Positions 272 to 18,205 of a stretch of DNA of 21,830 nucleotides are shown here, piece after piece. The first letter of the stretch is position 1, and each line of letters begins with the position of its first letter. A program made the position numbers and the translations under genes. The notes under the pieces were generated by a model. The model was not told the origin of the DNA, did no database searches, and saw only the letters and a list, made by a program, of their open reading frames with translations. Source of the DNA: an uncultured Erysipelotrichaceae bacterium (lineage in GTDB: Bacteria > Bacillota_I > Bacilli_A > Erysipelotrichales > Erysipelotrichaceae); the NCBI GenBank assembly GCA_944326175.1, contig CALVCY010000090.1, positions 1-21,830 on the forward strand, read 5' to 3'.

Positions 272-1557
272 TCAACGATCAGGTGTGTTCCGACATTGCG
301 GATCTGTAATGTCTTGCAACTGCCTTGACCAAACACATCTTCGATCTTGGTGCGATATTCGTTGACAAAATCATTGTCGACAAATGCTTGGATGGTCCCG
401 GCAAACCCGCCGCCATGGACTCTGGCCACACCATGGCCATTGAGCCAGTGATCGCTTAACGCTAATGCTAATGCCAGATTTTGATCGTGGTTGGAACCAT
501 CGATCCAGACATTACGTAGATATTGAAAACTGGAGTGAGCACTTTGGGTCACAATGGCACGGAATGCATCCATATCCTGGTTTTTCAATGATCGTACCAT
601 TGCACTAACGCGTTTGTTTTCATCATAAAAATGAATGGCGCGTAATATCGCTGCATCGGATACATCTTTCCGCAATGCAGCGATATTTTTGAAAAACAGT
701 GTGGGATCGACGTTTCGCAATACATCCTGGTCAAACCATCGGGCAACGGCGTTCATGTCGCGTGGGATCGATGCATACGCATCGGTCAGATCGGCATGGC
801 TGCCTTTGGTATCGACGATGCATAAGCTAGTATTCAATTTGGCAAAATCCACATGAAACGATAAGACTTCAGGATCCTGCGGATCTTTGAAATCGATATA
901 GACCAATCCACCGATCGCACAGGCGCATTGATCCATCAAGCCACTGGGTTTGCCAAAGTAGACGTTTTCGGCATATTGGCTGATCTTGGCTAACGTTAGT
1001 GCATCGATGGTCGAACCATTGTACAACGCATCAAGGATCGTGGCGATCAATACCTCAAAACAAGCGGAAGAACTCAATCCCGAACCGCTCAATACTTCGG
1101 AAGTGATCACACCATGGAAACCCCCGATGGTATGACCATGGTTGATAAATCCAGCCAGTATGCCCTTGATCAAGGCTTCACTGGTGCCGTATTTGTTTGG
1201 ATCGATCTTGATATCGTCAATATCGACAAAGGGGATGGTATAACCATCGGAATCGATGGTTATACCATTTTGATCTTTACTGACGATGGCTAAGGCATCC
1301 AGATTGATACTGGTGGCTAAAACCAATCCATGCTGATGGTCGGTATGATTGCCACATACTTCACTTCTTCCGGGAGTCGAGACCACGATCACATCATCAC
1401 TGGTGCCATATAAGGCCATATAGTGGTCCAGCATCTGGTGCAATCGATCATATACATGATCCAGTTGATCCGTTTCGACAATACCGGAAAGTAGGACATG
1501 GTTTAGACCATGATCATTTAGGGTTTGTTTCAATTGATTCACTTGCATATCGTTCAC
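268..1557 (-). CDS. galK: Galactokinase-like GHMP kinase
   Basis: This 429-residue GHMP-superfamily kinase probably phosphorylates galactose or a related sugar at C-1 (Leloir entry step) in the cytoplasm. All three family motifs are visible: the sugar-binding signature GRSEVCGNHTDHQHG (about 63-77), the ATP-binding loop LSGSGLSSSA (156-165) and the C-terminal glycine motif HGGGFAG. GLMDQ (206-210) carries the likely catalytic Asp209. Odd point: the signature usually reads GEHTDY, with the Glu contacting the sugar. Here it is Asn70, so specificity may differ from classical GalK. The start is GTG at 1557, with an ATG three codons downstream as alternative; both have only a weak GAAAG upstream. 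The gene stands alone, divergent from radC across a 93-bp region with a 14-bp palindrome. No uridylyltransferase or epimerase is adjacent. Four copies of the ATGGTNNNACCAT palindrome lie in the reading frame. Confidence 0.78.
   Translation of the reverse strand: MNDMQVNQLKQTLNDHGLNHVLLSGIVETDQLDHVYDRLHQMLDHYMALYGTSDDVIVVSTPGRSEVCGNHTDHQHGLVLATSINLDALAIVSKDQNGITIDSDGYTIPFVDIDDIKIDPNKYGTSEALIKGILAGFINHGHTIGGFHGVITSEVLSGSGLSSSACFEVLIATILDALYNGSTIDALTLAKISQYAENVYFGKPSGLMDQCACAIGGLVYIDFKDPQDPEVLSFHVDFAKLNTSLCIVDTKGSHADLTDAYASIPRDMNAVARWFDQDVLRNVDPTLFFKNIAALRKDVSDAAILRAIHFYDENKRVSAMVRSLKNQDMDAFRAIVTQSAHSSFQYLRNVWIDGSNHDQNLALALALSDHWLNGHGVARVHGGGFAGTIQAFVDNDFVNEYRTKIEDVFGQGSCKTLQIRNVGTHLIVD
1235..1268. 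repeat. 34-bp inverted repeat inside galK
   Basis: Two ATGGTNNNACCAT palindromes (1235-1247 and 1256-1268) are exact reverse complements of each other. They form 15-bp arms (1235-1249 and 1254-1268) around a GAAT loop. In the galK frame the two halves encode NGITI and DGYTI, separated by the loop codons. The structure could form a stable hairpin in mRNA or a cruciform in DNA. Confidence 0.8.
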
Positions 1558-1613
1558 GCTTTCTTTGGTTCACTTCCATTGTATTTCAGAAATGGTCAAA
1601 ACCCTAATATTTT

Positions 1614-1627
1614 ATGGTCATAACCAT
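1614..1627. promoter_or_regulatory. 14-bp palindrome between galK and radC, candidate operator
   Basis: ATGGTCATAACCAT has perfect 5-bp arms around a 4-nt centre. It lies in the divergent intergenic region, with a related half-site (ATGGTCAAAACC) at 1592-1603. No convincing -35/-10 pair could be assigned for either gene, so its role as an operator is inferred from position and from similarity to the repeat family found elsewhere in the window. Confidence 0.4.
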
Positions 1628-1650
1628 GGATATCTGTCTCTTAAGATAAT

Positions 1651-2325
1651 ATGAAGATCAATGCAATCGACAAATCCCTGCGCCCAAGAGAAAAAGCAAT
1701 GGGCTATGGTATGGCCACCTTGACCGATGCGGAATTATTGGCCATATTGATCCGCAACGGCACCAAAGAAAAAGGATGTATCGATATCGCGATCGAATTA
1801 TTGGACAGTCATGGTTCATTGCAGGATCTATTCAACAGCGATATCGATACACTGATCCAGACCAAAGGCATTTCCAGTGTCAAAGCCATCGAATTGAAAG
1901 CGGTGATGGAATTGGCAAAACGATTGTCTAAAACCATGCTCAATCGATCCATATTGATCGATGATCCAACCAAGATCATCGCGTATATGCGAACCCATTA
2001 TGGTCATGAAAACCATGAAGTGCTGGTGTGTTTTTATTTGGATGGAGCGGATCAATTGATCGAAGTCAAACCAATGGCCTATGGCAGCAGCAATCGCTTG
2101 TCCGTCGATATCCGCTCCATCCTCCATCATGGTTTGACCATCGAATGTTGTGGTTTGATCATTGCACATAATCATCCCAGTGGACGGTATGAACCCTCCA
2201 ATGCGGATATCGACTTTACTTTCCAATTGTCCAAGGCCTGTGAATTGGTGGGGATCGATCTGTTGGACCATATCATCGTCACGTTAAGCGGTGCATATAT
2301 CTTTTCCGATCACCATGACCCATAA
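1651..2325 (+). CDS. radC: RadC family JAMM/MPN-domain protein
   Basis: This is a 224-residue RadC homologue, the usual family length. An N-terminal helix-hairpin-helix region (about 55-85) precedes a JAB/MPN metalloprotease-like domain with the JAMM signature: Glu123 in NHEVLVCFYLD, His173 and His175 in AHNHPSG, and Asp186 in NADIDFT, which together bind zinc in related proteins. Despite the historic name, a role in repair is not established; RadC proteins are linked to recombination and competence in some bacteria, and the biochemical activity is unknown. The start at 1651 gives the expected MKI...RPREK N-terminus, although the ribosome binding site is poor. It is the first gene of the plus-strand block and is followed 53 bases later by the lipoprotein gene. 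One repeat palindrome is read as GLTI at 2129-2141. Confidence 0.88.
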   Translation: MKINAIDKSLRPREKAMGYGMATLTDAELLAILIRNGTKEKGCIDIAIELLDSHGSLQDLFNSDIDTLIQTKGISSVKAIELKAVMELAKRLSKTMLNRSILIDDPTKIIAYMRTHYGHENHEVLVCFYLDGADQLIEVKPMAYGSSNRLSVDIRSILHHGLTIECCGLIIAHNHPSGRYEPSNADIDFTFQLSKACELVGIDLLDHIIVTLSGAYIFSDHHDP

Positions 2326-2378
2326 AGATCACGCAGGGTTGATGATGAAACCATCCCGCCATGGGGTATACTTATACC

Positions 2379-3398
2379 ATGAAAATAAAGTTGTCCCGTT
2401 TGATGGTAATGGTTTTGACCATATTTACGCTAATGATCCCAAGTGGCTGTACCGTTCAGAAATCCCAGATCGCTTATACGGTCTATCCGATCGGTTATCT
2501 GATCCAAACCATTGCCGGCGATACCGTCAATGCGCAATCCATTCAAGAAGATGGTTCGACCATCCAATATGCCCGATTAAAAGATAACTGGCAAACCATC
2601 CTGGAAGATTCCGGTGTCTTTTTCCATGTCGGCAATATCGAACCCTACTATACCCTGATCCGCTCCACATTAAGGGATATGTCGATCGTCAACTACGATC
2701 TATCCGGATTGAATGCCATATACAAAAACATCCGCTATACCCCCATATTCGATGATGGCCAGTTATTGGGATATAGTGAAGGACCGTTCTATGATGATCC
2801 TTCCTTTGATCATATCGATATGACGGAAAATGATTTGAATCTGTGGTTGAACCCCATCAGCATGCTATCCATGGCGGATGATATCACCACCCAGTTATGC
2901 TCCCTTTATCCCGAATACGAAACCACATTCAAATCCAATTTTGAAAACCTGAAAACCGAACTGGTCCGTCTGGATGCCCAATATCAGGCATTATCGTCCA
3001 CGTTACGGTATCAAAACCAGCAGATCCGCATGGTCACGCTGACCAATGCATTCGGCAACTGGCAGAAAGCCTATGGCTTTGAGATCTATCCGGTGGTATT
3101 GAGCAAATTTGGCGTGATGCCAACGGACACGCAATTGGATGTGATCAAAAATCGGATCATCGAAGATCAAGTCCACTACATCGTTTATGAACCCAATATG
3201 AGTGATGAAATGATCGAATTATTCAACACATTAAGTGAAGAGTTGGATCTGACCCGGGTGGATCTGACCAATTGTTCAGCTCAAACCAGTGGACAGAATG
3301 AAAGTGCCATCGATTATCTGACCATGATGTATGACAATCTATCCGTATTGCAAAGCATGGCCGAACCACGGGGAGGTAATGGTGATGCCAACCAATAA
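2379..3398 (+). CDS. ZnuA/AdcA-like substrate-binding lipoprotein, metal ligands lost
   Basis: From the ATG at 2379 the product is 339 residues, with a basic and hydrophobic signal sequence and lipobox ending in Cys24 (IPSGC), so it should be anchored outside the membrane. The overall pattern follows cluster A-I metal-binding receptors of ABC transporters (PF01297): a helix with FFHVGNIEPYYTLI (81-94), then DLNLWLNP (152-159) where the family has DPHxWLDP, then TLTNAFGNWQKAYGF (220-234) where it has a His before AFxYF. The three histidines that bind Zn or Mn are therefore absent. It may bind something else or have a structural role. No ABC ATPase or permease lies nearby. An in-frame ATG at 2361 would put six residues before the signal peptide and is less likely. 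The 3' end overlaps polA by 14 bases, implying translational coupling. Confidence 0.75.
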   Translation: MKIKLSRLMVMVLTIFTLMIPSGCTVQKSQIAYTVYPIGYLIQTIAGDTVNAQSIQEDGSTIQYARLKDNWQTILEDSGVFFHVGNIEPYYTLIRSTLRDMSIVNYDLSGLNAIYKNIRYTPIFDDGQLLGYSEGPFYDDPSFDHIDMTENDLNLWLNPISMLSMADDITTQLCSLYPEYETTFKSNFENLKTELVRLDAQYQALSSTLRYQNQQIRMVTLTNAFGNWQKAYGFEIYPVVLSKFGVMPTDTQLDVIKNRIIEDQVHYIVYEPNMSDEMIELFNTLSEELDLTRVDLTNCSAQTSGQNESAIDYLTMMYDNLSVLQSMAEPRGGNGDANQ

Positions 3399-6018
3399 TC
3401 CAACATTGATCATACTCGATGGCAATTCCATCCTCTATCGTGCCTTTTATGCCACTTATATTCCCGACATGCCTGTTTTGCAGACATCCTTTGGTGTTCC
3501 CACCAATGCCATCATGAATCTGGCCAATATGTTGATCGGGATCATCACCACTTACAACCCCGATTACATGGCTGTGGCTTATGATGCTGGAAAGCATACG
3601 TTCCGTCATGATCTGTTTCCCGATTACAAAGGGGGCAGAAAACCGACACCGCCGGAGTTGGTCGAACAGTTTCCTATATCCAGAGAACTGTTGGATGCGT
3701 TTGGTATCCGCCATTATGAAGCCGATAACATCGAAGCCGACGATATCGTGGCTTCTTTGGCCGATGATGCATTCAGTCAAGGGATGCATGTGGATGTATT
3801 CACTTCCGATAAGGACTTGTTGCAGTTGGTTTCACCAACGGTCACCGTACATCTGATCAAAAAAGGGTTGAAAGACATCCAGGACAATACCCCCGATACC
3901 ATGCTTGAGTATCATGGCTTTCGGGCCGATCAGGTGTGTGACTATAAAGCCATCAATGGTGATGCCAGTGATAATCTGCCCGGGATCAAGGGGATCGGAC
4001 CGAAAAGCGCGCAAAAATTGTTGGCCCAATATGGCGATTTGGAAGGCATCTATGCGCATTTGGATGAATTGGGCAAATCCCAACGTGAAAAATTCATCGA
4101 AAACAAAGACAGTGTCCTGTTGCAAAAACAAATCACGACCGTCAAACGGGATGTCGAATTTCCGTTTGCTTTAAGTGATTGCATCATCGCCATCAATGAT
4201 CAAAAGTTGATCGATTTTTTTACAAAATATGAAATGCGCAAGCTGGCAGAGAAAGTGCAAAGCCAGTTTGCTGATTCATCCTCTAACGCATCCATGGTCA
4301 AAACCACGGTTGAGTGGACAAAAGTCGAACGGATCAGTGCATCCTTGTTAAAAGATAATATTGCATTGTCGTTGGATGCAGATTGTGGATTATACGCTCA
4401 AAATGAGATCTATGGCTTTGCATTATCCGATGGTTCAACCACCGAATACATCGATTACAGTGATGCCATCCAGGATGGATCATTCATCCAATGGTTGAAA
4501 GCAGATAATCATAAACTGTTTTATGATGCCAAACATGTCATCCTGACACTGGCCACCCATGGTTTGACCATCGACGGGATCGGTGAAGACGTGATGATTT
4601 TAGCTTCCTTAGCGGATTCGACCTGTACCAGTTTTGTCAAAACCAGTGAACGCTTTGATCTGATCAATGGTAAAACCAGAGAATCCATCTATGGTAAATT
4701 CGATAAACCCAAACTCCATGACCGCCTTGCCGCCATGGAATACACTGTCAATGAAACCCAGGATATCCTTACTTTATATCACACCTGTTATCCGATGGTC
4801 GAAACCATCGAATGTCTGCCGTTATACCGTGAAGTGGAAATGCCACTGTTACTGGTGCTATGTTCCATGGAACAACAGGGGATCGTCTGCAAAGCCGATA
4901 TCTTGGCAAAGATCGCCGATGATTTGAACATGCAGATCAATGATCTGACTGAAAAAATCTATGAAACGGTGGATCATCCGTTCAATCTCAATTCACCCAA
5001 GCAATTGGCGACGGTATTGTTTGATGAGCTTGGTTTGCCCACTGGCAAAAAACGTTCGACCAGCGCCGAAGTATTGGAAGGATTGGTCGGCGTGCATCCG
5101 ATCATTGATTATCTGTTGCGTTATCGAAAAATCGGAAAACTATATTCCACCTATGCCACAGGTTTGGATAAATACATCGGAGCTGATGGTCGCATCCATA
5201 CCACATTCAACCAAGCCGCGACCCAAACCGGTCGATTGAGTTCTTCAGATCCCAATTTGCAGAATATTTCCGTGCGCGATGAAGAAGGTCGGTTGATCCG
5301 TAAAGCCTTTTTACCCAGTGAAGGGTGTGTGCTACTAAGTTGCGATTATTCGCAAATCGAATTAAGGGTTCTGGCAGATCGGGCCAATGAGACCCGTTTG
5401 ATCGATGCATTCAAGGAAGGGATGGATATCCATACCAAAACCGCCATGGATGTCTTTGGTCTGACCAAGGATCAAGTGGACAGTGAACATCGTCGTAAAG
5501 CCAAAGCCGTCAACTTCGGTATCGTTTATGGCATCAGTGACTTTGGTCTGGCCAATCAACTCAACATTACTCCCATGGAAGCCCGTTCGTTTATTCAAAC
5601 CTATCTGACCACGTATCCGGGGATCAAGGACTATATGGATCAGATCGTCAAATTCTGTCAAGAAAACGGTTATGTGACCACGATCACCAACCGTCGTCGG
5701 GAGATCCCGGAAATCCATGATAAAAGTTATACGATGCGCGAATTCGGAAAACGCGCTGCCATGAATGCACCCATTCAAGGCTCCGCTGCCGATTTGATCA
5801 AGATCGCCATGCTGGAAGTGGAAAGGGCCATGCGCAAGGCCAATGTCAAAAGTAAAATGATCCTTCAGGTCCATGATGAATTGATTTTTGATGTTCCTAA
5901 GGATGAAGTGGAATTGATGTGTAAACTCGTGGAAGAAACCATGGAAAATGCATTGATCATGAAAGTGCCGTTAAAAGCGGAAGTGAAAGTCGGAAATGAC
6001 TGGTATGAGGCGAAATAA
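3385..6018 (+). CDS. polA: DNA polymerase I
   Basis: This 877-residue family A polymerase fills gaps and removes primers in replication and repair. The N-terminal 5'-3' flap exonuclease domain (about 1-290) contains the acidic clusters NIEADDIVASLADDA and FTSDKDLLQL and the helix-hairpin-helix KGIGPKSAQKLL. The polymerase domain shows motif A CDYSQIELRVLADR (about 652), motif B RRKAKAVNFGIVYGIS (about 704-718) and motif C QVHDELIF (about 828). The middle proofreading domain looks inactive: the usual DTET is replaced by SLDADC (about 330) and the other acidic positions are poorly kept, as in many Bacillota Pol I. The start was set at 3385 because GGGGAGG (3370-3376) is correctly spaced; an ATG two codons upstream is too close. 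It overlaps the lipoprotein gene upstream and mutM downstream. Confidence 0.97.
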   Translation: MPTNNPTLIILDGNSILYRAFYATYIPDMPVLQTSFGVPTNAIMNLANMLIGIITTYNPDYMAVAYDAGKHTFRHDLFPDYKGGRKPTPPELVEQFPISRELLDAFGIRHYEADNIEADDIVASLADDAFSQGMHVDVFTSDKDLLQLVSPTVTVHLIKKGLKDIQDNTPDTMLEYHGFRADQVCDYKAINGDASDNLPGIKGIGPKSAQKLLAQYGDLEGIYAHLDELGKSQREKFIENKDSVLLQKQITTVKRDVEFPFALSDCIIAINDQKLIDFFTKYEMRKLAEKVQSQFADSSSNASMVKTTVEWTKVERISASLLKDNIALSLDADCGLYAQNEIYGFALSDGSTTEYIDYSDAIQDGSFIQWLKADNHKLFYDAKHVILTLATHGLTIDGIGEDVMILASLADSTCTSFVKTSERFDLINGKTRESIYGKFDKPKLHDRLAAMEYTVNETQDILTLYHTCYPMVETIECLPLYREVEMPLLLVLCSMEQQGIVCKADILAKIADDLNMQINDLTEKIYETVDHPFNLNSPKQLATVLFDELGLPTGKKRSTSAEVLEGLVGVHPIIDYLLRYRKIGKLYSTYATGLDKYIGADGRIHTTFNQAATQTGRLSSSDPNLQNISVRDEEGRLIRKAFLPSEGCVLLSCDYSQIELRVLADRANETRLIDAFKEGMDIHTKTAMDVFGLTKDQVDSEHRRKAKAVNFGIVYGISDFGLANQLNITPMEARSFIQTYLTTYPGIKDYMDQIVKFCQENGYVTTITNRRREIPEIHDKSYTMREFGKRAAMNAPIQGSAADLIKIAMLEVERAMRKANVKSKMILQVHDELIFDVPKDEVELMCKLVEETMENALIMKVPLKAEVKVGNDWYEAK

Positions 6019-6839
6019 TGCCGGAATTTGCTGAAATCGAAGCGTTAAGAAGACCATTGGCCAAACGGTTGAATGGTCATACCATCGTCAATGTGACAGT
6101 ATTGGAACCAAGAAGTATCGAAGGAGAGATCGAAACATTCAAGCAAAATGTCATTGGTTCGACCATCAACGGAGTGGACCGTTATGGCAAGTATGGTTTG
6201 ATCCGTAGTGATCATGGTACATTGATGTTCCATTTACGCATGAGTGGTCAGTTCTATATCCAGAAGGTGAATATGGTTCGACCATCGTTTACCCGTGTGT
6301 TGCTCGATTTAGAAAATGGGGAACAGATCCGCTACGTCGATCAACGCAAATTCGGCTATCTAGCCGCCTATTCTAAAAACGAACCGTTATCTTTTCTAAA
6401 TGGATTGGGACCGGATGTTTTGGATCCTTCCATTAATACCCGCTTCTTCATTGAAACGTTCAAACCGATCCGTCGAAAGATCAAACCCACTTTGATGGAT
6501 CAGCATCTGATCTGTGGGCTAGGCAATATCTGGGCGGATGAGATCCTGTTTCAAGCCAAGATCCATCCGGCAAGCATCTGTGCAAAACTAACGGATCAGG
6601 ATTTTGACTATCTTTACCATGCATTCCACCACGTCGTGGCGTATGCCATCGAAGCGGGTGGGATCAACCATTACAATCCACTACCGGGCAGTGAATACAA
6701 CGGACAATTTGATCTTTTCACGCATACTTATGGAAAAGAAGGGAAACCGTGTAGTGCGTGTGGTTCGACCATACAGCGGATGATGATCAACGGGCGCAGT
6801 GCGTTTTATTGCCCGCATTGTCAAAGAATGATTCATTAA
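6018..6839 (+). CDS. mutM: Formamidopyrimidine-DNA glycosylase (Fpg/MutM)
   Basis: The 273-residue base-excision repair enzyme removes 8-oxoguanine and formamidopyrimidines and cleaves the abasic site. Pro2 and Glu3 (MPEFAEIEALRR), the catalytic N-terminal residues, are present, although the next residues differ from the common MPELPEVE. The helix-two-turn-helix segment MDQHLICGLGNIWADEILFQAKIHP is well conserved. The C-terminal zinc finger uses Cys245, Cys248, Cys265 and Cys268, with Arg260 in GRSAFYC placed to contact DNA. The ATG overlaps the polA TAA by one base, the classic coupling arrangement. Two exact repeat palindromes (6073-6085 and 6273-6285) lie within it; the second is in a different frame from all the others, read as MVRPS. 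Confidence 0.95.
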   Translation: MPEFAEIEALRRPLAKRLNGHTIVNVTVLEPRSIEGEIETFKQNVIGSTINGVDRYGKYGLIRSDHGTLMFHLRMSGQFYIQKVNMVRPSFTRVLLDLENGEQIRYVDQRKFGYLAAYSKNEPLSFLNGLGPDVLDPSINTRFFIETFKPIRRKIKPTLMDQHLICGLGNIWADEILFQAKIHPASICAKLTDQDFDYLYHAFHHVVAYAIEAGGINHYNPLPGSEYNGQFDLFTHTYGKEGKPCSACGSTIQRMMINGRSAFYCPHCQRMIH

Positions 6840-6858: not shown

Positions 6859-7443
6859 ATGCGCATCGCCATTACCGGTACGTTAGGTGCAGGGAAAAGT
6901 ACAGTTGCAATGATATTGAGAAATCATGGGTTTGACGTGGTTGATGCCGATGGTCTAGCCAAAAGCTACTATGGTCCAACCAGTCCTGTCCATGATCGAT
7001 TGCATCATTTGCTGAAAGATCACAATGTTTATGATGAAAAGGGACAACTGGATATTTCCCGTTTTTCCACACTTTTCTTCAATCAACCCGTATTAAAAAA
7101 TCAAGTCACCGATATTCTTTATGACCAAATGCGCAAAGATCTTGCCCATATGGGCAAGATCCATGATCCGTTCATTGCCGAAGTCCCACTGTTATTCGAA
7201 GCGAAAATGGAAGATCTGTTCGATCATATCCTGGTGGTGACCACCACTAAAAATAGGGTATTGCAACGCATCGGTAAGAGTCGCAACATGGATCCAAAAC
7301 ATTATCAACAACGCATGGCTTATCAATATGATGATGCGTATAAGATCAGCCATGGTGATACCATCATTGAAAACAATGGCACCATGGAAGAATTGGAAAG
7401 GAAGGTGATGGCATGGATCAAACTGTTAACCGACCCCGATTAG
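6859..7443 (+). CDS. coaE: Dephospho-CoA kinase
   Basis: The 194-residue P-loop kinase catalyses the last step of coenzyme A synthesis, phosphorylating the 3'-OH of dephospho-CoA. The Walker A motif GTLGAGKS (7-14), the DADGLAK segment that starts the CoA-binding part (typically DAD.iar) and EVPLLFE (typically vPLLfE) are visible. The start is supported by AAGGGAGG about ten bases upstream. It lies 19 bases after mutM, and its 3' end overlaps dnaB by 31 bases. The polA-mutM-coaE-dnaB-dnaI order is conserved in many Bacillota. A repeat palindrome is read as GDTI at 7352-7364. Confidence 0.95.
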   Translation: MRIAITGTLGAGKSTVAMILRNHGFDVVDADGLAKSYYGPTSPVHDRLHHLLKDHNVYDEKGQLDISRFSTLFFNQPVLKNQVTDILYDQMRKDLAHMGKIHDPFIAEVPLLFEAKMEDLFDHILVVTTTKNRVLQRIGKSRNMDPKHYQQRMAYQYDDAYKISHGDTIIENNGTMEELERKVMAWIKLLTDPD

Positions 7444-8618
7444 ACGGGGATGATACATTCCGTATCGAATGTGGTTTTACCATCGATATCAATGATATCC
7501 ATGCATTGGTGCAATGCTATCAGCCATTGATCCATGCTCAAGGTGTCAGTGTATATTTAACATTAGTATCCCTTGGTTCGACCATGTTCAATCCGATCGA
7601 TCATCTGCATTTATGTACCCTTTGCGATCTGGATATCGGCAATCTTTCCCATACCCTTCAATTACTGGAACAGCATCAACTCTTAAAAACCCGTTATAAA
7701 CCGATCGATCTGCATTACGATTATCTGTATTCCCTGGTCCAACCACTCTCTGTTTCAGCATTTCTATCCAATCCATTATTTGGCCGTTCATTGGCCAACA
7801 CCGTCGCGATGGATCATTTTTCCTTGATCAATAAACGCTTTCCATCCCATCTATATGATGCCGCCGGTTATACAGATGTCACGACACCGTATGATCCAAC
7901 CCCCATCATCCACCAATGGAGCGAATCCAGCGAATCCAGATATCGCGATGTGCATGGATCCATTGCTGAAACGCAAACGCAGATCGATGGATTTGATATC
8001 CAACGGTTTCTTGCCGGCCTGGACGATTTCCAATTCCCACGGCCATTGCGCACCGATGCCAATCTTCGTGCCATTGCCCAACTGGCCAATGCATTCAACA
8101 TGAATGAAATGGATATGCAATTGGCCATGTACCGTGCGATCCAAAAAGATGGCACGGAATTTTCGTTGAATCAATTGATGCACTATTGTGCTTCCCATGC
8201 CCCCAAAGCCAAAACAGGCATCAAACGGGAGGATATGCCCCCGGCACAGTTTTTGCAATCACTCAAGCAGGGAGTCGCATTATCCGATTATGAAACCCGT
8301 GCGATCCTTGATTTGGTCAACAAATATCATTTTTCCAATGCGTTGAACAACGTCATCATTGCACGATTGATCGAAACCAACAAACGCATCAGCAAATCCG
8401 GTCTGGATGCGTATGCATCCTATCTGGTGTATAACAAAGTGAGCACGCCCGAATCTGCAGTGGAAGTGCTGAAACATTATGGTACGATCAACAAAAGCAG
8501 TGGTGGCTATCGCTATGTGGAAAGCAAACCGAATTATGAAAATGCCAAACAAGAAGGCGCAAATATCACGGTATTGAGTGAAGATGAAGTCGAAACGGCA
8601 CTCAAGGAGGTCGGTTAA
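7413..8618 (+). CDS. dnaB: Replication initiation and membrane attachment protein DnaB
   Basis: This 401-residue protein resembles the Bacillota primosome protein DnaB, which is not the replicative helicase. In Bacillus it works with DnaD and DnaI to load the helicase at the origin and on restart, and associates with the membrane. An N-terminal winged-helix-like region (about 10-130, FRIECGFTIDINDIHALVQCYQPLI) is followed by a helical DnaB/DnaD-type domain in the second half (about 270-370), ending SGLDAYASYLVYNKVSTPESAVEVLKHY. Family similarity is moderate, so the assignment leans on context: it directly precedes and overlaps dnaI (TAATG, one base). The ATG at 7413 follows GAAGG with 7-base spacing and lies inside the end of coaE, so translation is probably coupled. 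Confidence 0.87.
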   Translation: MDQTVNRPRLDGDDTFRIECGFTIDINDIHALVQCYQPLIHAQGVSVYLTLVSLGSTMFNPIDHLHLCTLCDLDIGNLSHTLQLLEQHQLLKTRYKPIDLHYDYLYSLVQPLSVSAFLSNPLFGRSLANTVAMDHFSLINKRFPSHLYDAAGYTDVTTPYDPTPIIHQWSESSESRYRDVHGSIAETQTQIDGFDIQRFLAGLDDFQFPRPLRTDANLRAIAQLANAFNMNEMDMQLAMYRAIQKDGTEFSLNQLMHYCASHAPKAKTGIKREDMPPAQFLQSLKQGVALSDYETRAILDLVNKYHFSNALNNVIIARLIETNKRISKSGLDAYASYLVYNKVSTPESAVEVLKHYGTINKSSGGYRYVESKPNYENAKQEGANITVLSEDEVETALKEVG

Positions 8619-9583: not shown

Positions 9584-9675
9584 ATGGTTTGACCATGACT
9601 TTCCATGGTTTTTGACAATGAACGCCCTTACATTATTCAATCATGGTTTGACCATGGTCAAACCATGCTAAAATA
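9584..9675 (+). promoter_or_regulatory. Palindrome cluster and probable promoter of pfkA
   Basis: Three exact ATGGTNNNACCAT copies lie here: 9584-9596, 9643-9655 and 9654-9666. The last two share an AT and together form a perfect 26-bp palindrome (9642-9667). A decayed copy lies at 9604-9618. A -35-like TTGACC (9648-9653) lies inside the palindrome, with TAAAAT at 9669-9674 (15-bp spacing, short). TTGACA (9612-9617) with TATTCA (9634-9639, 16-bp spacing) is an alternative. Either way a protein bound to the 26-bp site would overlap or abut the promoter. The operator role is inferred. Confidence 0.55.
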
Positions 9676-10661: not shown

Positions 10662-10711
10662 ACCATATCCATTGCTCACATTGCAATCACCAATGCATAT
10701 GGTTTGACCAT
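10662..10711. promoter_or_regulatory. Nested inverted repeats and palindrome between pfkA and pyk
   Basis: ACCATAT (10662-10668) pairs with ATATGGT (10697-10703), enclosing a smaller ATTGC/GCAAT pair (10671-10675 and 10683-10687). The outer arm runs into an exact ATGGTTTGACCAT palindrome at 10699-10711. No T tract follows, so this is not a standard terminator, and no good -10 box was found downstream. It may be an operator or an mRNA structure controlling pyk. Confidence 0.4.
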
Positions 10712-12205: not shown

Positions 12206-12403
12206 ATGGATCGCATGATGAAATGGTTGCTGGCACTGGTGTGGCTATTGATCTTGGTTTTACCATGCTGGTACTTCAGTATGAAATATCTGAAAAAACT
12301 TTCGGCTGATCACAATGTGAAGCTGCAGAATACCGTGTTGGTTCTGTTGTTTGCTGCCTTGTGCGTTTCAGCAGCCTGGATTGTGGGGTTATTTGTTTTA
12401 TGA
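12206..12403 (+). CDS. Small two-helix membrane protein, unknown function
   Basis: The 65-residue product has two hydrophobic segments (about 6-24, LLALVWLLILVLPCWYF, and about 43-65, NTVLVLLFAALCVSAAWIVG) joined by a basic, polar loop (KYLKKLSADHNVK), consistent with a hairpin in the membrane. I do not recognise the family. There is no ribosome binding site, and the predicted +1 of the upstream promoter coincides with the ATG, so it may be translated from a leaderless message. The ATG codons at 12215 and 12218 are alternatives. Its stop overlaps the next start as ATGA, so the two small genes are translationally coupled. Confidence 0.6.
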   Translation: MDRMMKWLLALVWLLILVLPCWYFSMKYLKKLSADHNVKLQNTVLVLLFAALCVSAAWIVGLFVL

Positions 12404-12662: not shown

Positions 12663-12675
12663 ATGGTTTGACCAT
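12663..12675. promoter_or_regulatory. Repeat palindrome upstream of the AEC permease
   Basis: An exact ATGGTTTGACCAT copy lies 35 bases before the permease start. Its TTGACC (12668-12673) could act as a -35 with TGATAA (12692-12697, 18-bp spacing) as a weak -10, so the palindrome would overlap the promoter. Confidence 0.4.
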
Positions 12676-12710
12676 CTTTTATCCTGGGTCGTGATAAGGG
12701 GAATAGAAAT

Positions 12711-13631
12711 ATGGATGGAAATTTCATTACATTATTGTTCAACCAGATCATTGTCATGTTCGTATTGATGCTGGTTGGATTCATCTTTTATAAAATCAAA
12801 TTCATTTCGGATCAAGGCAGCAAGGATATCGGAAAGATATTGCTGTATTTGGTCATACCCATTGTGATCATCCGCAATTTCATGATCGAATTCAATGCCC
12901 AAAATGTCGATGCATTGATCCACTCGACATTGATCGCATTGGTTGCCATGGTGTTATCCGTTGCGGTTTCGTATTTGTTTTTCGCTCGTCGCGATGGTGT
13001 AGCCAATTTTTCCGCAGCTTTCTCCAATGCCGGATTCATCGGTATCCCGTTGATTTCTGCCACATTGGGTGAAAGTGCCGTATTGTATATTTCCATGATG
13101 ATCGTATTGATCAATGTATTGCAATGGACGTATGGTGTATTCATCATGACCGGTGATCGCTCAGTCATGAGTCCTAAGAAGATCATCACCAATCCCATTG
13201 TCATTGCTGTTTTGATCGGTTTGGTGGTTTTTATCACTCAAATTCCGGTGCCATCCATCGTGGAAGATGTGTTTGAATTATGTGCCGGGATCAATACCCC
13301 GTTGGCTATGATGGTATCGGGTGTCTATTTGGCGCAAAGTGATTTGAAAGCCATGTTTGCCAAGTTGAGTATTTATAAAGTTTCACTGGTTCGCTTGATC
13401 ATCATTCCACTGGTCACATTAGCGGTATTCATGGTCTTACCATTTGGTTCCACCACCATCAAATTGGCGATCTTCATTGCCGCTGCCTGTCCGGTCGGTT
13501 CCAACGTTGCCATCTTTGCCCAACAGTATAATCAGGATTATCACAGTGCCGTGGAACAGGTGTGCATGACGACTATTTTGTGTCTGATCTCATTGGTGGT
13601 CATGACCATGCTTGCCAGCAGTGTCCTATAA
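12711..13631 (+). CDS. AEC (auxin efflux carrier) family permease
   Basis: The 306-residue integral membrane protein has about ten hydrophobic segments in two groups of five, the layout of the AEC family (PF03547), which in bacteria transports malate, lactate or similar carboxylates. Family-like features are NAGFIGIPLISATLGESAVLYISMM in the first half, the central cytoplasmic loop with MSPKKIITNPIVIAVLIGLVV, and PLAMMVSGVYLA and CPVGSNVAIFAQQYNQD in the second half. AAGGGGA (12696-12702) supports the start. It is a single-gene transcript between two hairpins. Its TAA shares a base with an ATGGTTCGACCAT palindrome. The substrate cannot be told from sequence, but carboxylate export downstream of pyruvate kinase would fit the neighbourhood. 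Confidence 0.87.
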   Translation: MDGNFITLLFNQIIVMFVLMLVGFIFYKIKFISDQGSKDIGKILLYLVIPIVIIRNFMIEFNAQNVDALIHSTLIALVAMVLSVAVSYLFFARRDGVANFSAAFSNAGFIGIPLISATLGESAVLYISMMIVLINVLQWTYGVFIMTGDRSVMSPKKIITNPIVIAVLIGLVVFITQIPVPSIVEDVFELCAGINTPLAMMVSGVYLAQSDLKAMFAKLSIYKVSLVRLIIIPLVTLAVFMVLPFGSTTIKLAIFIAAACPVGSNVAIFAQQYNQDYHSAVEQVCMTTILCLISLVVMTMLASSVL

Positions 13632-13703
13632 TGGTTCGACCATCATAAAAAACGGTGTGCGAAAACTTTCGCACACCGTTTTGATGTATTTTGGTTCAAC
13701 CAT
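13631..13703. terminator. Bidirectional terminator flanked by two palindromes
   Basis: A perfect 14-bp stem (13651-13664 and 13667-13680, AACGGTGTGCGAAA arms) has A residues before it and T residues after it, so it can stop both the permease (+) and the regulator (-). The repeat palindrome ATGGTTCGACCAT (13631-13643) shares a base with the permease stop codon. A one-mismatch copy, TTGGTTCAACCAT (13691-13703), overlaps the regulator stop codon on the other side. Confidence 0.85.
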
Positions 13704-15627
13704 TATCCGCCCAGGTTTCAATGGAATGCATCGCTTTGATGAATCCGTCAAAATCATTGTAATGATCCAATACCTTGGATACGATCTTGCGGTTTTGAGA
13801 AAGGATCGCGATTTTCTTGAAGAAATTGACACTGAACTCATGATTGCCATATATACAGGTCAAAAAGATCAATCGGACGTGGTTTTCACCCCACTTGATC
13901 GGCTCATCCGTTCGTCCCACGGCAATAAAATTGAGATGGTTGGGATTTTCCAGAGGATGCGGGACCGCGATTTGCGTATCATACGACGTACTCATGAATA
14001 CTTCCCGCTTCATCAATTCATCCACGAAATCATGTGGTAATGCCACATGATCACTTAGTTTTGCCACAAAATCCTCCAATAACGATTTGGGATCATGGCC
14101 TTCAAGATGATCGAACAATACCGGGATGAACACATCATCGAAATGGTCGTTGGTTTGAAATAAACGGATGCACTGACGGATCGCATCGATATCCGCCATG
14201 CTCAGATAGGGGGAGATCTTTGCCACATGGTTAAATGGTAAGATCATCGAGGTCGTATTTAAGATCAATCGACAGTTTTGCACCTGTTCTTGCGTCACGG
14301 ATTCTACCGGAAAGAATGAGATGGTATTGATCGCACCTTCAAAGTTTTCATTGAGCTTGTACGTCATCAATGAATACAAGTTGTTGATTTCCTCTTCGAT
14401 GCCGATCACGGCCACATTGATCGGCGCGGCATTGAGTTTTCGTTTTTCCAATGCCAACGCGATATGCAAGGCAAAATAACCCGTCTCTGCTTCCGATACG
14501 GCCGCCTGTCCTTTGTCAATGGTGAGATGGTACAAACCACTGCTGGCCAGATCATATGCCATCGGGTATTGGTTTCGTATATCCATCAACTCACTTTTTT
14601 CAATCTGGTTGTTGTTTTCATAACGCGTCAAAAACGGCACGATATGATTGAGCAGACTGGTGCGCAATTCATCATCATCAAATAGATCGATATGACTGTA
14701 TTTGTAGATATTGCGCAATAACTTATTGTAAAACACCAACGCATCATTGTTCACTTTCACCATGATGCGTTCATGGCGCATCTTGCGCTGTTTTCCGGCC
14801 AGATGCATCGTCAGATACATCAATTCATTGACCGGCAAGTCGATGCCAAAAGTGGCCTTGATCTTGCGGTTGATGGCATTGATGACAAAATATTCTGTAC
14901 TGCTTCTTAAATAAGGTTCGATGGTCTCGGCATCCTTGATGACATTATCCGTTTCACATCGATAGATGCATAACATGATATGCAATGTCAAAGAACGCAT
15001 GCCATCATTGGTGATGGCGATATCATAATCCTTCAGCGTCTTTGATACGATCGATTCGATCACTTTGACATCCACATTGAGATGTTCCTGGTTCAATAAT
15101 TGATGGATATCCACCTGAGTGCGACATTCTTTCATCAAACATCGGCGCACGTCATTTTCATCGCCTTTGACTTTATACCCATACAAATGCGAATGGATTA
15201 GATCGATATCGTATTGCGCCAATATCCCGGATACGGTTTTCAAGCAACTTCTCAAAAGCGAAGGGGAGATCGCCAGTTCATCGGAAAGATCGTATACATT
15301 GAGATAATCGCTTTCCAGCAACAATCGGCTTAAAATATAGATGTTGCGCTGTTTGGGATCATTGAGGTAGTCATTGTCTTTGCTGGAATTCAGATAGCGT
15401 GCAAAAAGAGAAGCATCCTGGATGATCAATATCGAACCTTGACCTTGTTTGATGTCGATGGTCGCACCATAATCCGCCACATCCTGTTTCAAAAAATTCA
15501 GATACTTCAATGTGGTTTTTTCGGAGATGCCCAATGTTTGCGCCATGGTCTTGCTGTTGACCGGCGTTTTGGTGTCCAGAAGGATATTCAACATGTGACG
15601 CTGGATATTTTCTTTCATCGCCGACAT
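13696..15627 (-). CDS. PRD-containing transcriptional regulator with EIIB- and EIIA-like domains (LicR/ManR type)
   Basis: The 643-residue PTS-controlled activator or antiterminator-type regulator contains an N-terminal winged helix-turn-helix (about 5-60, TMAQTLGISEKTTLKYLNFL), a second HTH-like region (about 90-150), PRD1 (about 200-300, His216 and His275), PRD2 (about 310-400, His328 and His388), a GatB-like EIIB region (about 402-490) and a C-terminal mannitol/fructose-type EIIA domain with His557 in AVPHPLE. The EIIB-like segment reads NVAVIGIEEEINN where an active domain has a phosphorylated Cys, so that site seems lost. PRD and EIIA histidines would be phosphorylated by HPr or the sugar-specific PTS, tying activity to transport. 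It is divergent from the PTS IIBC gene, the probable target, and shares a control region with a 22-bp inverted repeat. DNA-binding activation is more likely than RNA antitermination because no RNA-binding CAT domain is seen. Confidence 0.88.
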   Translation of the reverse strand: MSAMKENIQRHMLNILLDTKTPVNSKTMAQTLGISEKTTLKYLNFLKQDVADYGATIDIKQGQGSILIIQDASLFARYLNSSKDNDYLNDPKQRNIYILSRLLLESDYLNVYDLSDELAISPSLLRSCLKTVSGILAQYDIDLIHSHLYGYKVKGDENDVRRCLMKECRTQVDIHQLLNQEHLNVDVKVIESIVSKTLKDYDIAITNDGMRSLTLHIMLCIYRCETDNVIKDAETIEPYLRSSTEYFVINAINRKIKATFGIDLPVNELMYLTMHLAGKQRKMRHERIMVKVNNDALVFYNKLLRNIYKYSHIDLFDDDELRTSLLNHIVPFLTRYENNNQIEKSELMDIRNQYPMAYDLASSGLYHLTIDKGQAAVSEAETGYFALHIALALEKRKLNAAPINVAVIGIEEEINNLYSLMTYKLNENFEGAINTISFFPVESVTQEQVQNCRLILNTTSMILPFNHVAKISPYLSMADIDAIRQCIRLFQTNDHFDDVFIPVLFDHLEGHDPKSLLEDFVAKLSDHVALPHDFVDELMKREVFMSTSYDTQIAVPHPLENPNHLNFIAVGRTDEPIKWGENHVRLIFLTCIYGNHEFSVNFFKKIAILSQNRKIVSKVLDHYNDFDGFIKAMHSIETWADNG

Positions 15628-15668
15628 TATATCGAATTTCCGTATCCCATAAAAGTCCCATAATCAGC

Positions 15669-15690: not shown

Positions 15691-15693
15691 TGT

Positions 15694-15722
15694 TTGTTAC
15701 TTAATCATGTGAAAGTTGTCAA
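15694..15722 (-). promoter_or_regulatory. Probable promoter of the PRD regulator
   Basis: On the minus strand TTGACA (15722-15717) and TAACAA (15699-15694) are 17 bp apart. The predicted transcription start near 15687 falls inside the inverted repeat at 15669-15690, which would suit autoregulation. The -10 match is weak. Confidence 0.45.
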
Positions 15723-15747
15723 AATAAAACCAGCTAAGGAGGAACGC

Positions 15748-17403
15748 ATGATTCAAGACATAAACGTCCTTCTGGTCTGTGCCGCCGGTGCGTCGACATC
15801 GCTGCTGGCGCATCGAGTCGCCCAATTGTGCGAAAAGGATGGTTGGACCATCGATGCCCGCAGTTATACCGAAATTCCAAATGTGATCGGTAAATACGAT
15901 GTCGTGCTGGTTGCACCACAGATTCGATATGAATTCCAGCATATCGAAACCATCGTCTCCCAATATGAAGGGATCATGCTCAAGCAGATCGAAGGCCACG
16001 ATTTTGCTGCACTTGATCCACAGATCATTGTGGATACGGTATTGGAACTCTATGGAGTTTCACAATCCAAGAAAGGGGAAAGACAAATGTCTCAGAAAGT
16101 ATCCGTCATGGATAAGATTTCCGCAGTCATGGAAAAGTACATCGTTCCGGTGGGAATGAAGATTTCCAACCAACGTCATTTGGCTGCGGTGCGTGATGGC
16201 TTGACCGTCATGATCCCAATCACCATCATCGGTGGTTTTGCCTGTTTGATCGCCGTGCCGCCGATCCCGGCCACGATCACTGAACCGAGCAACTTCTTCT
16301 ATGCCTTCTTATTGGCATGGCAAAGTTTCGCTGCTCAATACAACAGCATCCTGATGTTGCCGTATCAGCTGACCATCGGTATCATTTCCATCTATGTCGT
16401 CTGTGGTGTTGCTTATCAATTGGCCTCAACCTACAAGATGAATGGAATCAACAACATGATCACTGCGTTGCTGGTTTATCTGTGTGTATCCGGATCTGTT
16501 GATTTAGCCAATGGTTCGATCATCATGGGTAATCTGGGTGCAGGTTACATGTTTACGGCCATGGTGATCGGTTTGCTTGTCGTGGAAGTCAACCACTTCT
16601 TCATCAAACACAACATCGTGATCAAATTACCGGCTTCGGTGCCACCCAATGTTGCCGCTCCGTTTAACGTATTGATCCCGGGTGTGGTCAACGTCGTGCT
16701 ATTCATTTTATTGGATGTATTGTGCACCAGCTTGACCGGTGCTGGTCTATCTAAACTGGTTTATACCATCTTCCAGCCATTGATGAGTGCGACCGGTTCT
16801 TTACCGAGCGTATTGTTGATCAACCTTTTGATGACCACCTTCTGGTTCTTCGGTATCCATGGTGCCAACATGCTTTCTGTGGTCACCAGTCCGATCACCA
16901 CAGCTGCCTTGGCGGCCAATGCTGAAGCCTATGTGGCCGGTGAAGCTTTACCGTTTATCTATGCCGGTGCCATGAACTCGGTATTCGGTAACTGGATCAC
17001 ATACAACGTCATCCTGTTGGTCATCTTCTTATGGTGCAAGAGCAACCAGGCCCGCTCCGTTGCCAAAGTTGCCATCGTTCCATCCTTGTTCAACATCAAT
17101 GAACCCTCCATTTTCGGTTTACCGACCGTGTTGAACGTTTATACTTACATCCCATTGATCCTGTGCTCCATGATCAACTGCTCCGCTTATTACATCTGCG
17201 CCAGCATGAATATCGTGGGTCGCTTCTACATCACATTGCCATTTACCGTTCCAGGTCCGTTACAGGCTTTCCTGGCAACCGGTGACGTCATGACGATCGT
17301 GTTGTGGATCATTCTGTTCCTTGTGGATATCCCCATCGTCTATCCGTTTATCAAAACGTATGATAAGACCTTGGTCGCTCAGGAACAGGGGACAAACGCT
17401 TAA
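15748..17403 (+). CDS. PTS lactose/cellobiose-family permease, IIB-IIC fusion
   Basis: From the ATG at 15748 (AAGGAGG at 15736-15742) the product is 551 residues. Residues 1-105 form a IIB domain with phosphorylatable Cys11 in LLVCAAGASTSLLAHRV. Residues 114-551 form a IIC permease of the Lac family (PF02378) with about ten hydrophobic segments and the family stretches NQRHLAAVRDGL, FFGIHGANM and FNINEPSIFGLP. It imports a beta-linked disaccharide and phosphorylates it on entry. The IIB-first order is the reverse of LacE, which is IIC-IIB. An internal ATG at 16087 with a purine-rich AAGGGGAAAG in front would give a free 438-residue IIC with a normal N-terminus. No IIA is fused or adjacent; the one at 19438 probably serves it. 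The divergent PRD regulator is the likely controller. Confidence 0.92.
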   Translation: MIQDINVLLVCAAGASTSLLAHRVAQLCEKDGWTIDARSYTEIPNVIGKYDVVLVAPQIRYEFQHIETIVSQYEGIMLKQIEGHDFAALDPQIIVDTVLELYGVSQSKKGERQMSQKVSVMDKISAVMEKYIVPVGMKISNQRHLAAVRDGLTVMIPITIIGGFACLIAVPPIPATITEPSNFFYAFLLAWQSFAAQYNSILMLPYQLTIGIISIYVVCGVAYQLASTYKMNGINNMITALLVYLCVSGSVDLANGSIIMGNLGAGYMFTAMVIGLLVVEVNHFFIKHNIVIKLPASVPPNVAAPFNVLIPGVVNVVLFILLDVLCTSLTGAGLSKLVYTIFQPLMSATGSLPSVLLINLLMTTFWFFGIHGANMLSVVTSPITTAALAANAEAYVAGEALPFIYAGAMNSVFGNWITYNVILLVIFLWCKSNQARSVAKVAIVPSLFNINEPSIFGLPTVLNVYTYIPLILCSMINCSAYYICASMNIVGRFYITLPFTVPGPLQAFLATGDVMTIVLWIILFLVDIPIVYPFIKTYDKTLVAQEQGTNA

Positions 17404-17429
17404 GACTCAACCCGCTTAACGGAAAATCA

Positions 17430-17457
17430 GGCAACCCGGTTGATCCGGGTTGCCTTT
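17430..17457 (+). terminator. Hairpin after PTS IIBC, partial terminator or attenuator
   Basis: A perfect 10-bp GC-rich stem (GGCAACCCGG at 17430-17439, CCGGGTTGCC at 17445-17454) is followed by only TTTGTT. The weak T tract suggests partial read-through into chbG, or an mRNA-stabilising 3' structure, which would set a higher level for the permease than for the downstream enzymes. Confidence 0.65.
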
Positions 17458-17480
17458 GTTCAAAAGAAAGGTAGCGTGTT

Positions 17481-18185
17481 ATGAAAGTCGTATTCAATGC
17501 CGATGATTTGGGATATACACATGGTGTCAACCAGGGGATCATCGATGGTTTCGAACATGGCGTGATCCGTTCGACCACCATGTTGATGAGTTCTCCTTAT
17601 ATCGAAGAAGCGAAACAAATGGTTTTGGAACACCCGGGATTGGGTGTTGGGGTGCATTTGAATCTGACACTGGGCATGTCATTGACCCATGGTCAAACCA
17701 TCAGTGATGAAAATGGCATGTTCTATCCGGGAAGAAAGACCATCTGGACGCATGATGATATCGATTACAACGAAATCTATGTCGAATGGAAAGCTCAGAT
17801 CGAAAAATACATCGAGGTCTTTGGACATAAACCCACGCATCTGGACAGTCATCATTCCGTACATGATGCCAATCCCAAAGCTTATGAAATATCCAGTGGT
17901 CTGGCGAAAGAATATGGTTTGACCATGCGCCGATATGGCGATTACAAATTTGTCATGGGCTTTTTTGGGGATGATGAACACTGTTCTGCGGAATGGTTGA
18001 TCCATTTGCTGGAAGAAAACAAGGATGATGATATTGAGATCATGGTCCATCCGGCATGGTGTGATCGGGAATTGTTCGATTGCAGTAGCTATTCGTTAGG
18101 CAGAGTCAAGGAATTGTCTACGTTATGTAGTGCCAAAGTATTGGATTATATCCATCAAAATGGTATTGAACTGGTGCATTATTGA
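17481..18185 (+). CDS. chbG: ChbG/YdjC-family carbohydrate deacetylase
   Basis: This 234-residue protein of the YdjC/ChbG family (PF04794) consists of cytoplasmic metal-dependent deacetylases. In E. coli ChbG removes one acetyl group from chitobiose-6-phosphate so that the operon activator and hydrolase can use it. Family motifs are FNADDLGYTHGVNQGI (metal Asp pair, 5-20), GVGVHLNLTLG, THLDSHHSVH (about 119-128, metal His pair) and MVHPAW near the C-terminus. It is placed between a PTS permease and a hydrolase gene, as in chb and cel operons, suggesting that the transported sugar is, or includes, an N-acetylated disaccharide. AAAGG lies ahead of the ATG. Two repeat palindromes (17689-17701, 17914-17926) are read as GQTI and GLTM. 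Confidence 0.87.
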   Translation: MKVVFNADDLGYTHGVNQGIIDGFEHGVIRSTTMLMSSPYIEEAKQMVLEHPGLGVGVHLNLTLGMSLTHGQTISDENGMFYPGRKTIWTHDDIDYNEIYVEWKAQIEKYIEVFGHKPTHLDSHHSVHDANPKAYEISSGLAKEYGLTMRRYGDYKFVMGFFGDDEHCSAEWLIHLLEENKDDDIEIMVHPAWCDRELFDCSSYSLGRVKELSTLCSAKVLDYIHQNGIELVHY

Positions 18186-18192
18186 TCAAAGG

Positions 18193-18205
18193 ATGGTTCA
18201 ACCAT
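18193..18205. promoter_or_regulatory. Repeat palindrome overlapping the MBL-fold start codon
   Basis: An exact ATGGTTCAACCAT copy occupies the space between the AAAGG ribosome binding site (18188-18192) and the start codon (18204-18206), sharing its AT. As a small RNA hairpin or a protein site it could influence initiation. A further one-mismatch copy lies at 18295-18307. Confidence 0.45.

Follow-up and report, generated by a model that had tools for sequence, protein, structure and literature searches.

A 21,830-nucleotide stretch of DNA from an uncultured Erysipelotrichaceae bacterium (GenBank assembly GCA_944326175.1, contig CALVCY010000090.1, positions 1 to 21,830; the window) carries many copies of a gapped palindrome, ATGGTNNNACCAT. 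We found that this palindrome is iterated genome-wide, in coding and noncoding DNA, beyond what codon usage produces. The repeat is probably a FadR-type operator that has spread chromosome-wide, and the genome's single FCD regulator is the likely binder. More tentatively, we suggest that a FadR-type factor turned into a chromosome-wide binder in one clade of Bacillota, that its operator invaded thousands of places, that at least about 1,000 peptides were rewritten, and that the result is a repeat like the cyanobacterial highly iterated palindromes (HIPs) with a protein, not a methylase, behind it. We found no description of the repeat in this lineage, or of a GntR protein with such a repeat, in a limited search of the open-licence PMC literature.

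A palindrome iterated across the genome

An earlier note on this DNA had reported 21 exact copies of the palindrome, found by eye. We counted 22 over the same range (1007-18205); 100 dinucleotide shuffles gave 0.09 on average and never more than 2. The note's four copies with a 4-nt centre were all recovered as exact palindromes. Its seven copies outside genes correspond to those not wholly genic, since 15 of the 22 lie inside genes, six are intergenic and one spans a gene edge. A preferred core had also been named, and ATGGTTTGACCAT is the most frequent exact form (7/22). When the definition was widened to TGGT-N3-ACCA and TGGT-N4-ACCA (core sites), the window contained 54 sites, 40 of the first kind and 14 of the second (Table 1).

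Genome-wide figures were obtained from G001, the nearest genome compared (~1.6 Mb, 97% complete), whose sequence aligns with the window over its full length at 98.56% identity. Some homologues of G001 genes are labelled Holdemania, Anaerorhabdus, Amedibacillus or 'Erysipelotrichaceae bacterium', which places the lineage near Erysipelotrichaceae. Exact copies number 836 in G001 versus 1 for the reversed pattern, and the enrichment thus extends across the genome, beyond the window. The detailed analysis covered 1,545,275 bases on 59 contigs, which contain 798 of the 836. Among 596 distinct genomes scanned (244 of the same family and 392 from a phylum-level draw, all of the same class or nearer, with 40 in both), the next highest count was 23. 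No second genome of G001's genus was among the 596 drawn. Sister genera showed no comparably strong palindrome of their own in 19 readable stretches of 12-20 kb; one further stretch consisted entirely of N.

The repeat unit was defined in G001. The 2,090 TGGT-N3-ACCA and 933 TGGT-N4-ACCA sites add up to 3,023 in 1.545 Mb, where ~112 of each are expected, and give a core density of ~1 per 510 bp. Other spacers of up to 11 nt are far weaker, the highest exact-form count being 33 at 6 nt (control 3). The outer base is A in 60% of sites and the 3-nt centre favours Y-N-R. A weak C/G preference lies two bases outside the outer A/T, and the flanks show no conservation past it. Single changes are rare at the T and the first G; they are frequent at the outer base and at the second G, where a change to A gives ATGAT (271 copies). 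Lone half-sites occur near their Markov expectation (ATGGT, 7,904 vs 7,483 expected), which indicates that the unit needs both halves. The outer bases of the two halves show only slight mutual dependence.

Codon usage was controlled for with 20 shuffles that kept every protein and each gene's codons, applied to our own simple gene prediction (1,327 genes). Coding sequence in G001 holds 588 exact copies, compared with a shuffle mean of 125 and a maximum of 142, which bears out the earlier proposal of a highly iterated palindrome beyond codon bias. Coding N3 sites number 1,715 vs a mean of 319 (5.4-fold) and coding N4 sites 839 vs 232 (3.6-fold). Noncoding and coding densities are similar (N3, 1.54 vs 1.29 per kb; N4, 0.43 vs 0.63 per kb), with a modest excess in the 100 bp 5' of gene starts (~3.1/kb) and the 50 bp past gene ends (3.57/kb) over ~2/kb elsewhere. 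Coding sites favour one reading frame, as an artefact of codon usage or composition might lead one to expect. Such an artefact, or a dispersed repeat element, is nonetheless refuted by the 3.6- to 5.4-fold excess over the codon shuffles, the similar noncoding density, the unconserved flanks and the single copy of the reversed control, and we give it next to no weight.

A probable FadR-type operator and its candidate regulator

The core of the repeat, TGGTNNNACCA, is common to the PdhR box (AATTGGTnnnACCAATT; PMC7660256, in excerpt) and the FadR operator (AACTGGTCNGACCAGTT, as quoted in an excerpt of PMC3626644). Of the five GntR-type genes in G001, two encode a UTRA domain, two are short (144 and 130 aa) and the fifth is a GntR-FCD gene, the only FadR-type regulator seen in this genome. 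It lies on contig C27, 3' of infB and rbfA. Its protein scores 46.1 bits for the GntR domain and 26.8 bits for FCD (cut-off 24.3). The AlphaFold model, with a mean predicted local distance difference test (pLDDT) score of 81, matches FadR; the FadR-DNA complex 1hw1 is its third PDB match, with a template-modelling (TM) score of 0.78 on the target. Alignment with homologues placed the start of the gene at C27:11405, the original call being too early. The leader reads GTGGTCTGACCAACTGGTCAGACCAC, which comprises two perfect operators, so the regulator probably represses itself. TACAAT lies just upstream, and a promoter scan returned no full promoter.

We searched 239 genomes with a profile of the FCD protein (E <= 1e-20) and found 17 homologous genes in 16 genomes other than G001. 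A perfect TGGTN3ACCA lies within 160 bp upstream of 13 of the 17. Eight of these belong to one genus, g32, whose loci are mutually homologous and hence not eight independent cases; three other genera contribute 2, 1 and 2. In 11 of the 13, the operator stands 24-30 bp before the chosen start codon. Genomes with such an operator lack the repeat and hold only 7-47 of these sites in total, and the chance of a site in a given 160-bp leader is ~1 in 350 or rarer. The homologue alignment shows LPSER as nearly fixed and, in the recognition helix, K and H in place of the R of known GntR proteins. Several of the 13 operator-bearing homologues also have R at this position, which indicates that the K/H residues do not define the operator.

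The sites themselves look maintained and bound. The window and G001 differ by 309 substitutions, and all 54 sites are common to both. None of the 430 core bases has changed, compared with 6.7 changes expected from base and codon position (Poisson P 0.0013); lone TGGT/ACCA words show 12 changes vs 14.6 expected, and spacers 3 vs 2.6. Neighbouring sites in G001 have a preferred centre-to-centre distance of 21 bp, with 85 pairs at 20-23 bp (25 expected), 14 at 11.5-20 bp (71 expected) and 11 at 30-33 bp (25 expected). Dimers that each cover ~20 bp and line up on one helical face would produce such spacing, and together these patterns strongly suggest sites that are maintained and occupied. In being numerous, chromosome-wide and spaced as if by a bound protein, the sites resemble those of a nucleoid-associated protein. 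In the window, three exact copies lie at 9584-9666, between a dnaI-like gene and pfkA, and two of them are 11 bp apart, within the spacing range otherwise avoided.

A hairpin, formed in RNA or as a cruciform, was considered and is not favoured. Outer covariation is small (N3 sites, position 0 complementary in 952 vs 876 and position -1 in 609 vs 533; N4 sites, no significant excess), the ends of the N3 centre form fewer complementary pairs than expected (489 vs 708), and pairs of sites stand 21 bp apart.

We propose that the operator of a FadR-type regulator has multiplied to ~3,000 chromosomal copies. A dimer would contact two TGGT half-sites across the 3- or 4-nt centre and cover ~20 bp, and a neighbouring dimer could bind at 21 bp, two turns further along the helix. 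The FCD regulator on C27 is the likely binder. Four observations lead us to infer that this protein occupies the repeats in the cell: the operator match, the family footprint, its position as the sole FadR-type protein seen, and the distribution of orthologues and protein imprint described below. For the thousands of sites, we favour a chromosome-wide role of the bound protein, which may be architectural, like that of a nucleoid protein, or one of global regulation. A nucleoid-protein site and a global regulator site were among the earlier candidates and fit best, since the core is a FadR-type operator and a likely cognate protein is encoded. The repeat resembles known FadR/PdhR-type operators in its TGGT-N3-ACCA core and in standing in the regulator's own leader, as seen both in G001 and in relatives. 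It differs from them, as they number few to tens, in its ~3,000 copies, mostly coding, in its additional 4-nt centres and in the rarity of C-N-G centres.

Several results weigh against this explanation. The double site in the FCD leader, taken alone, is only suggestive, since 16 of the 1,327 called genes likewise have two sites <=60 bp upstream. Four of the 17 homologues have no site within 160 bp upstream, and the distant homologues in G251 and G256 (27-28% identity) have leaders without a site. A C-N-G centre is present in 8 of 11 near operators in relatives but in only 66 of the 2,090 N3 repeats, and the 933 sites with a 4-nt centre depart from the 3-nt centre of the quoted FadR-type operators. 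The low complementarity of the N3 centre ends also tells against a FadR-type operator. In codon adaptation the FCD gene is unremarkable (40th percentile, in a genome whose codon bias is weak), which does not suggest an abundant protein. Finally, protein and repeat may occur together through common descent, which confounds their association.

Another DNA-binding protein, with a nucleoid or segregation function, could share the TGGT half-sites. The site evidence for a bound dimer does not identify the protein, and G001 also encodes four other GntR-type proteins, HU, ParB and a second ParB-type, Noc-like protein. ParB and probably Noc, however, keep their own sites in G001: we counted two perfect parS and 19 Noc-like sites (<=2 mismatches) using the parS and Noc consensi as commonly given. 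That the operator precedes homologous GntR-type genes in four other genera favours the FadR-type family instead, and we consider a different protein unlikely. The repeat is like the architectural sites matS and Noc in being a palindromic protein site with a symmetric centre; matS or Noc sites number tens per genome, and the repeat has thousands of copies.

AbrB-type proteins have TGG half-sites. An AbrB-type protein was rejected as a candidate: PF04014 gave a single weak match in G001, beside a protein that looks PIN-type by eye, and the match looks like an antitoxin. An MraZ-like frame was also seen in G001 by eye.

Imprint of the repeat on proteins

The repeat can encode peptides in six frame and spacer settings, and all six are in excess in G001. 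The pattern W[FSYCLW][YHND][HQ] occurs 171 times vs 15 in shuffled proteins, with 5 for the reversed pattern. G-x-T occurs 2,961 vs 1,753 times and [MLV]V-x-T 811 vs 356 times, and the other three patterns are 1.7- to 2.3-fold in excess. Open frames from relatives give ratios of 0.8-1.05, no excess, for three of the six patterns and 1.29 for G-x-T (1.67 in G001). The ratio for W[FSYCLW]-x-P is the same as in G001 (1.7), and that for the W...[HQ] pattern equals G001's on 8 cases, in a set with many copies of one gene.

We located the boundary of this imprint with two proteins, using the best 120 of 5,646 matches for NAD(P)H-hydrate dehydratase and the best 120 of 7,996 for MutL. Within these best matches, the NAD(P)H-hydrate dehydratase of G001 has 13 site-encoded peptides, and its homologues have 15 at 83% identity, 12.5 at 69-70% and 9 at 54%. 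Beyond this, the count falls to 1.0 in three homologues at 43% and to a mean of 1.7 in 112 at 31-37%. Reversed patterns number 3-5 in the imprinted proteins, 4 at 43% and 2 at 31-37%. MutL has 14, 12 and 14.5 peptides at 98, 84 and 71% identity; the count then drops to 2.1 in eight homologues at 52-53%, a single homologue at 44% has 3, and the 107 others have 1.4. The positions turn over: of the 13 peptides in the G001 NAD(P)H-hydrate dehydratase, 8 are common at ~69% identity and 2 at 54%. Judged from these peptide counts, the repeat has changed proteins, and its imprint stops at a clade boundary.

Orthologues of the FCD protein at 49-88% identity are six metagenome proteins, and imprinted lineages reach a similar distance. 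Lineages past ~54% identity for NAD(P)H-hydrate dehydratase or 71% for MutL carry no imprint among the best 120 matches of each. If the proposed explanation holds, the operator of an ordinary regulator can become a genome-wide signal strong enough to alter proteins.

Distribution of the sites and alternative functions

Site density in G001 varies with codon adaptation: ranked in fifths from the lowest adaptation upwards, genes carry 1.72, 2.67, 2.30, 1.93 and 1.14 sites per kb. We scanned ten proteins from long site-free stretches. Most were of defence-island kinds (a C5 methylase with helicases, HsdM, restriction-type proteins), and two were V-type ATPase subunits. Contig C39 has a 7-kb site-free stretch with genes read by eye as ribosomal-protein genes. 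The site-free islands and the codon-adaptation trend indicate that sites are fewest in likely newcomers to the genome and in the genes under the strongest constraint. A 21-kb site-free island (C25:4176-25294) contains helicases, a C5 methylase and a dynamin-like protein and is apparently a defence island. Many of the site-richest genes seem to act in DNA repair or replication (MutL and MutS confirmed; the rest by eye). Viral contigs searched with two pair patterns gave 7 and 15 stretches (contig parts), most with <0.6 sites/kb; the maximum, 1.74 sites/kb, was two sites in a 1.15-kb piece.

For the function of the repeat, the strongest rival is DNA uptake. The palindrome would then mark DNA preferred by ComEA or by a protein of the competence pilus, and transformation would spread it over the genome, much as uptake sequences have spread in Pasteurellaceae and Neisseriaceae. 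Known uptake sequences number hundreds to thousands per genome (PMC2346458, in excerpt), and the core density of the repeat is within their range. G001 encodes ComGA, ComEA, DprA, a ComEC-like protein and, by eye, a ComGC-like pilin. The absence of sites from defence-type islands and the genome-maintenance look of several of the site-richest genes fit uptake as well, and a per-site drive would explain more easily than a FadR-type operator how sites override protein sequence at a cost to proteins. The ComEC-like protein (C52:59716-61632), however, has a C-terminal TIGR00361 match of 90.4 bits, below the NCBIfam cut-off of 190.05, and lacks a recognized Pfam channel domain; PF03772 (ComEC channel) was found in none of the six genomes searched, G001 and five relatives. 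The repeat is like the uptake signal sequences (USS) and DNA uptake sequences (DUS) in its thousands of copies, coding regions included, and in the presence of competence genes. Known USS and DUS are non-palindromic (PMC1939737, in excerpt), whereas the repeat is palindromic, requires both halves, which fits uptake less well, and has a helical spacing. Uptake also gives no reason for the match to the FadR operator, the 21-bp preference or the operators 5' of FadR-type genes in relatives. The earlier suggestion of an uptake signal thus keeps its support from the competence genes and loses ground on the palindromic form, the dependence on both halves and the spacing, and we regard it as quite unlikely. 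If it were true, a Gram-positive lineage would have an uptake sequence that is a palindrome; a limited search of the open-licence PMC literature found none described.

A methylase target was also among the earlier candidates. Under this reading, methylation-dependent repair would preserve the repeat, which would be tied to a methylase in the manner of cyanobacterial HIP1. Cyanobacterial HIPs accompany methylases (PMC4390886, in excerpt), and the tolerated ATGAT form corresponds to a C-to-T change on the other strand. A regular-expression methylase screen, which was not exhaustive, nonetheless disfavours this candidate: its nine picks included two DNA methylases (C5 and HsdM), both in motif-free stretches, and the remaining seven had no match to a DNA methylase family. 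We consider a methylase-linked repeat very unlikely. In the same genome, GATC occurs 17,466 times in 1.545 Mb, and GGATCC and TTCGAA are under-represented relative to Markov expectation.

The repeat and the cyanobacterial palindromes (HIP1, GCGATCGC, and the alternative HIPs) are alike in being short, genome-wide, located in and between genes, present on the order of 1/kb and lineage-specific. Unlike HIP1, the repeat is gapped (3- or 4-nt centre), has no methylase outside motif-free islands in the non-exhaustive screen, matches a transcription-factor operator in sequence, leaves a strong peptide imprint and belongs to a lineage near Erysipelotrichaceae. HIP1 has raised the question of why one palindrome should occur thousands of times in a genome; the present repeat comes with a concrete candidate protein and with a boundary between lineages that have the imprint and lineages that lack it.

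The genes of the window are ordinary chromosomal ones. They include genes for a galactokinase-like protein, a RadC-family protein and a zinc-transporter-type binding protein, polA, mutM/fpg, coaE, dnaB- and dnaI-like genes, pfkA, and genes for pyruvate kinase, an efflux carrier, phosphotransferase system (PTS) proteins and a 6-phospho-beta-glucosidase.

Table 1. Palindrome sites in the window, entered without strand (.). Core N3 and core N4, TGGT-N3-ACCA and TGGT-N4-ACCA; exact N4, ATGGT-N4-ACCAT.
Site	Position	Strand	Remark
Core N4	488..499	.	
Core N3	728..738	.	
Exact ATGGTNNNACCAT	1007..1019	.	
Exact ATGGTNNNACCAT	1127..1139	.	
Exact ATGGTNNNACCAT	1235..1247	.	next site at 21 bp
Exact ATGGTNNNACCAT	1256..1268	.	
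Exact N4	1498..1511	.	
Exact N4	1614..1627	.	intergenic; spacer base changed in G001, core unchanged
Exact ATGGTTTGACCAT	2129..2141	.	radC-family gene
Exact N4	2409..2422	.	
Exact ATGGTNNNACCAT	2551..2563	.	
Core N3	3827..3837	.	polA
Core N4	4295..4306	.	polA
Core N3	4431..4441	.	polA
Exact ATGGTTTGACCAT	4559..4571	.	polA
Core N3	4668..4678	.	polA
Exact N4	4795..4808	.	polA
Core N3	5457..5467	.	polA; spacer base changed in G001, core unchanged
Exact ATGGTNNNACCAT	6073..6085	.	
Core N3	6155..6165	.	
Exact ATGGTNNNACCAT	6273..6285	.	
Core N3	6761..6771	.	
Core N3	6972..6982	.	
Core N4	7232..7243	.	overlaps 7235..7246; may be chance
Core N4	7235..7246	.	overlaps 7232..7243; may be chance
Exact ATGGTNNNACCAT	7352..7364	.	
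Core N3	7472..7482	.	
Core N3	7574..7584	.	
Core N3	7735..7745	.	
Core N4	8676..8687	.	
Core N3	8789..8799	.	
Core N4	8824..8835	.	
Exact ATGGTTTGACCAT	9584..9596	.	dnaI-like gene/pfkA interval
Exact ATGGTTTGACCAT	9643..9655	.	dnaI-like gene/pfkA interval
Exact ATGGTCAAACCAT	9654..9666	.	two bases common with 9643..9655
Core N3	9890..9900	.	
Exact ATGGTTTGACCAT	10699..10711	.	pfkA/pyruvate kinase gene interval
Core N3	12255..12265	.	intergenic
Exact ATGGTTTGACCAT	12663..12675	.	intergenic
Exact ATGGTNNNACCAT	13431..13443	.	
Core N3	13445..13455	.	
Core N4	13597..13608	.	
Exact ATGGTNNNACCAT	13631..13643	.	first base is last base of stop codon
Core N3	13692..13702	.	gene edge
Core N4	14528..14539	.	
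Exact ATGGTNNNACCAT	15458..15470	.	
Exact ATGGTNNNACCAT	15839..15851	.	
Core N3	15908..15918	.	
Core N4	16757..16768	.	
Core N4	17522..17533	.	
Exact ATGGTNNNACCAT	17689..17701	.	
Exact ATGGTTTGACCAT	17914..17926	.	
Exact ATGGTNNNACCAT	18193..18205	.	gene edge; spacer base changed in G001, core unchanged
Core N3	18296..18306	.	

Two candidate palindromes were seen in two further genomes: CTGC-N1-GCAG occurs 12 times vs 1.6 expected in 20 kb of G035, and GCAGCTGC 8 times vs 1.3 expected in G019. Each is possibly another palindrome or a codon effect. In G001, about 0.5 kb past the end of the window, two FadR-type sites form a perfect 24-bp palindrome at C31:44023-44046, TGGTCAGACCAGCTGGTCTGACCA. 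Nearby lie a terminator-like hairpin and genes read partly by eye as encoding a sigma-I-type factor and RsgI-like proteins. An RsgI-like gene contains a coding tandem repeat (C31:41097-41378) with seven sites spaced exactly 45 bp, one per unit.

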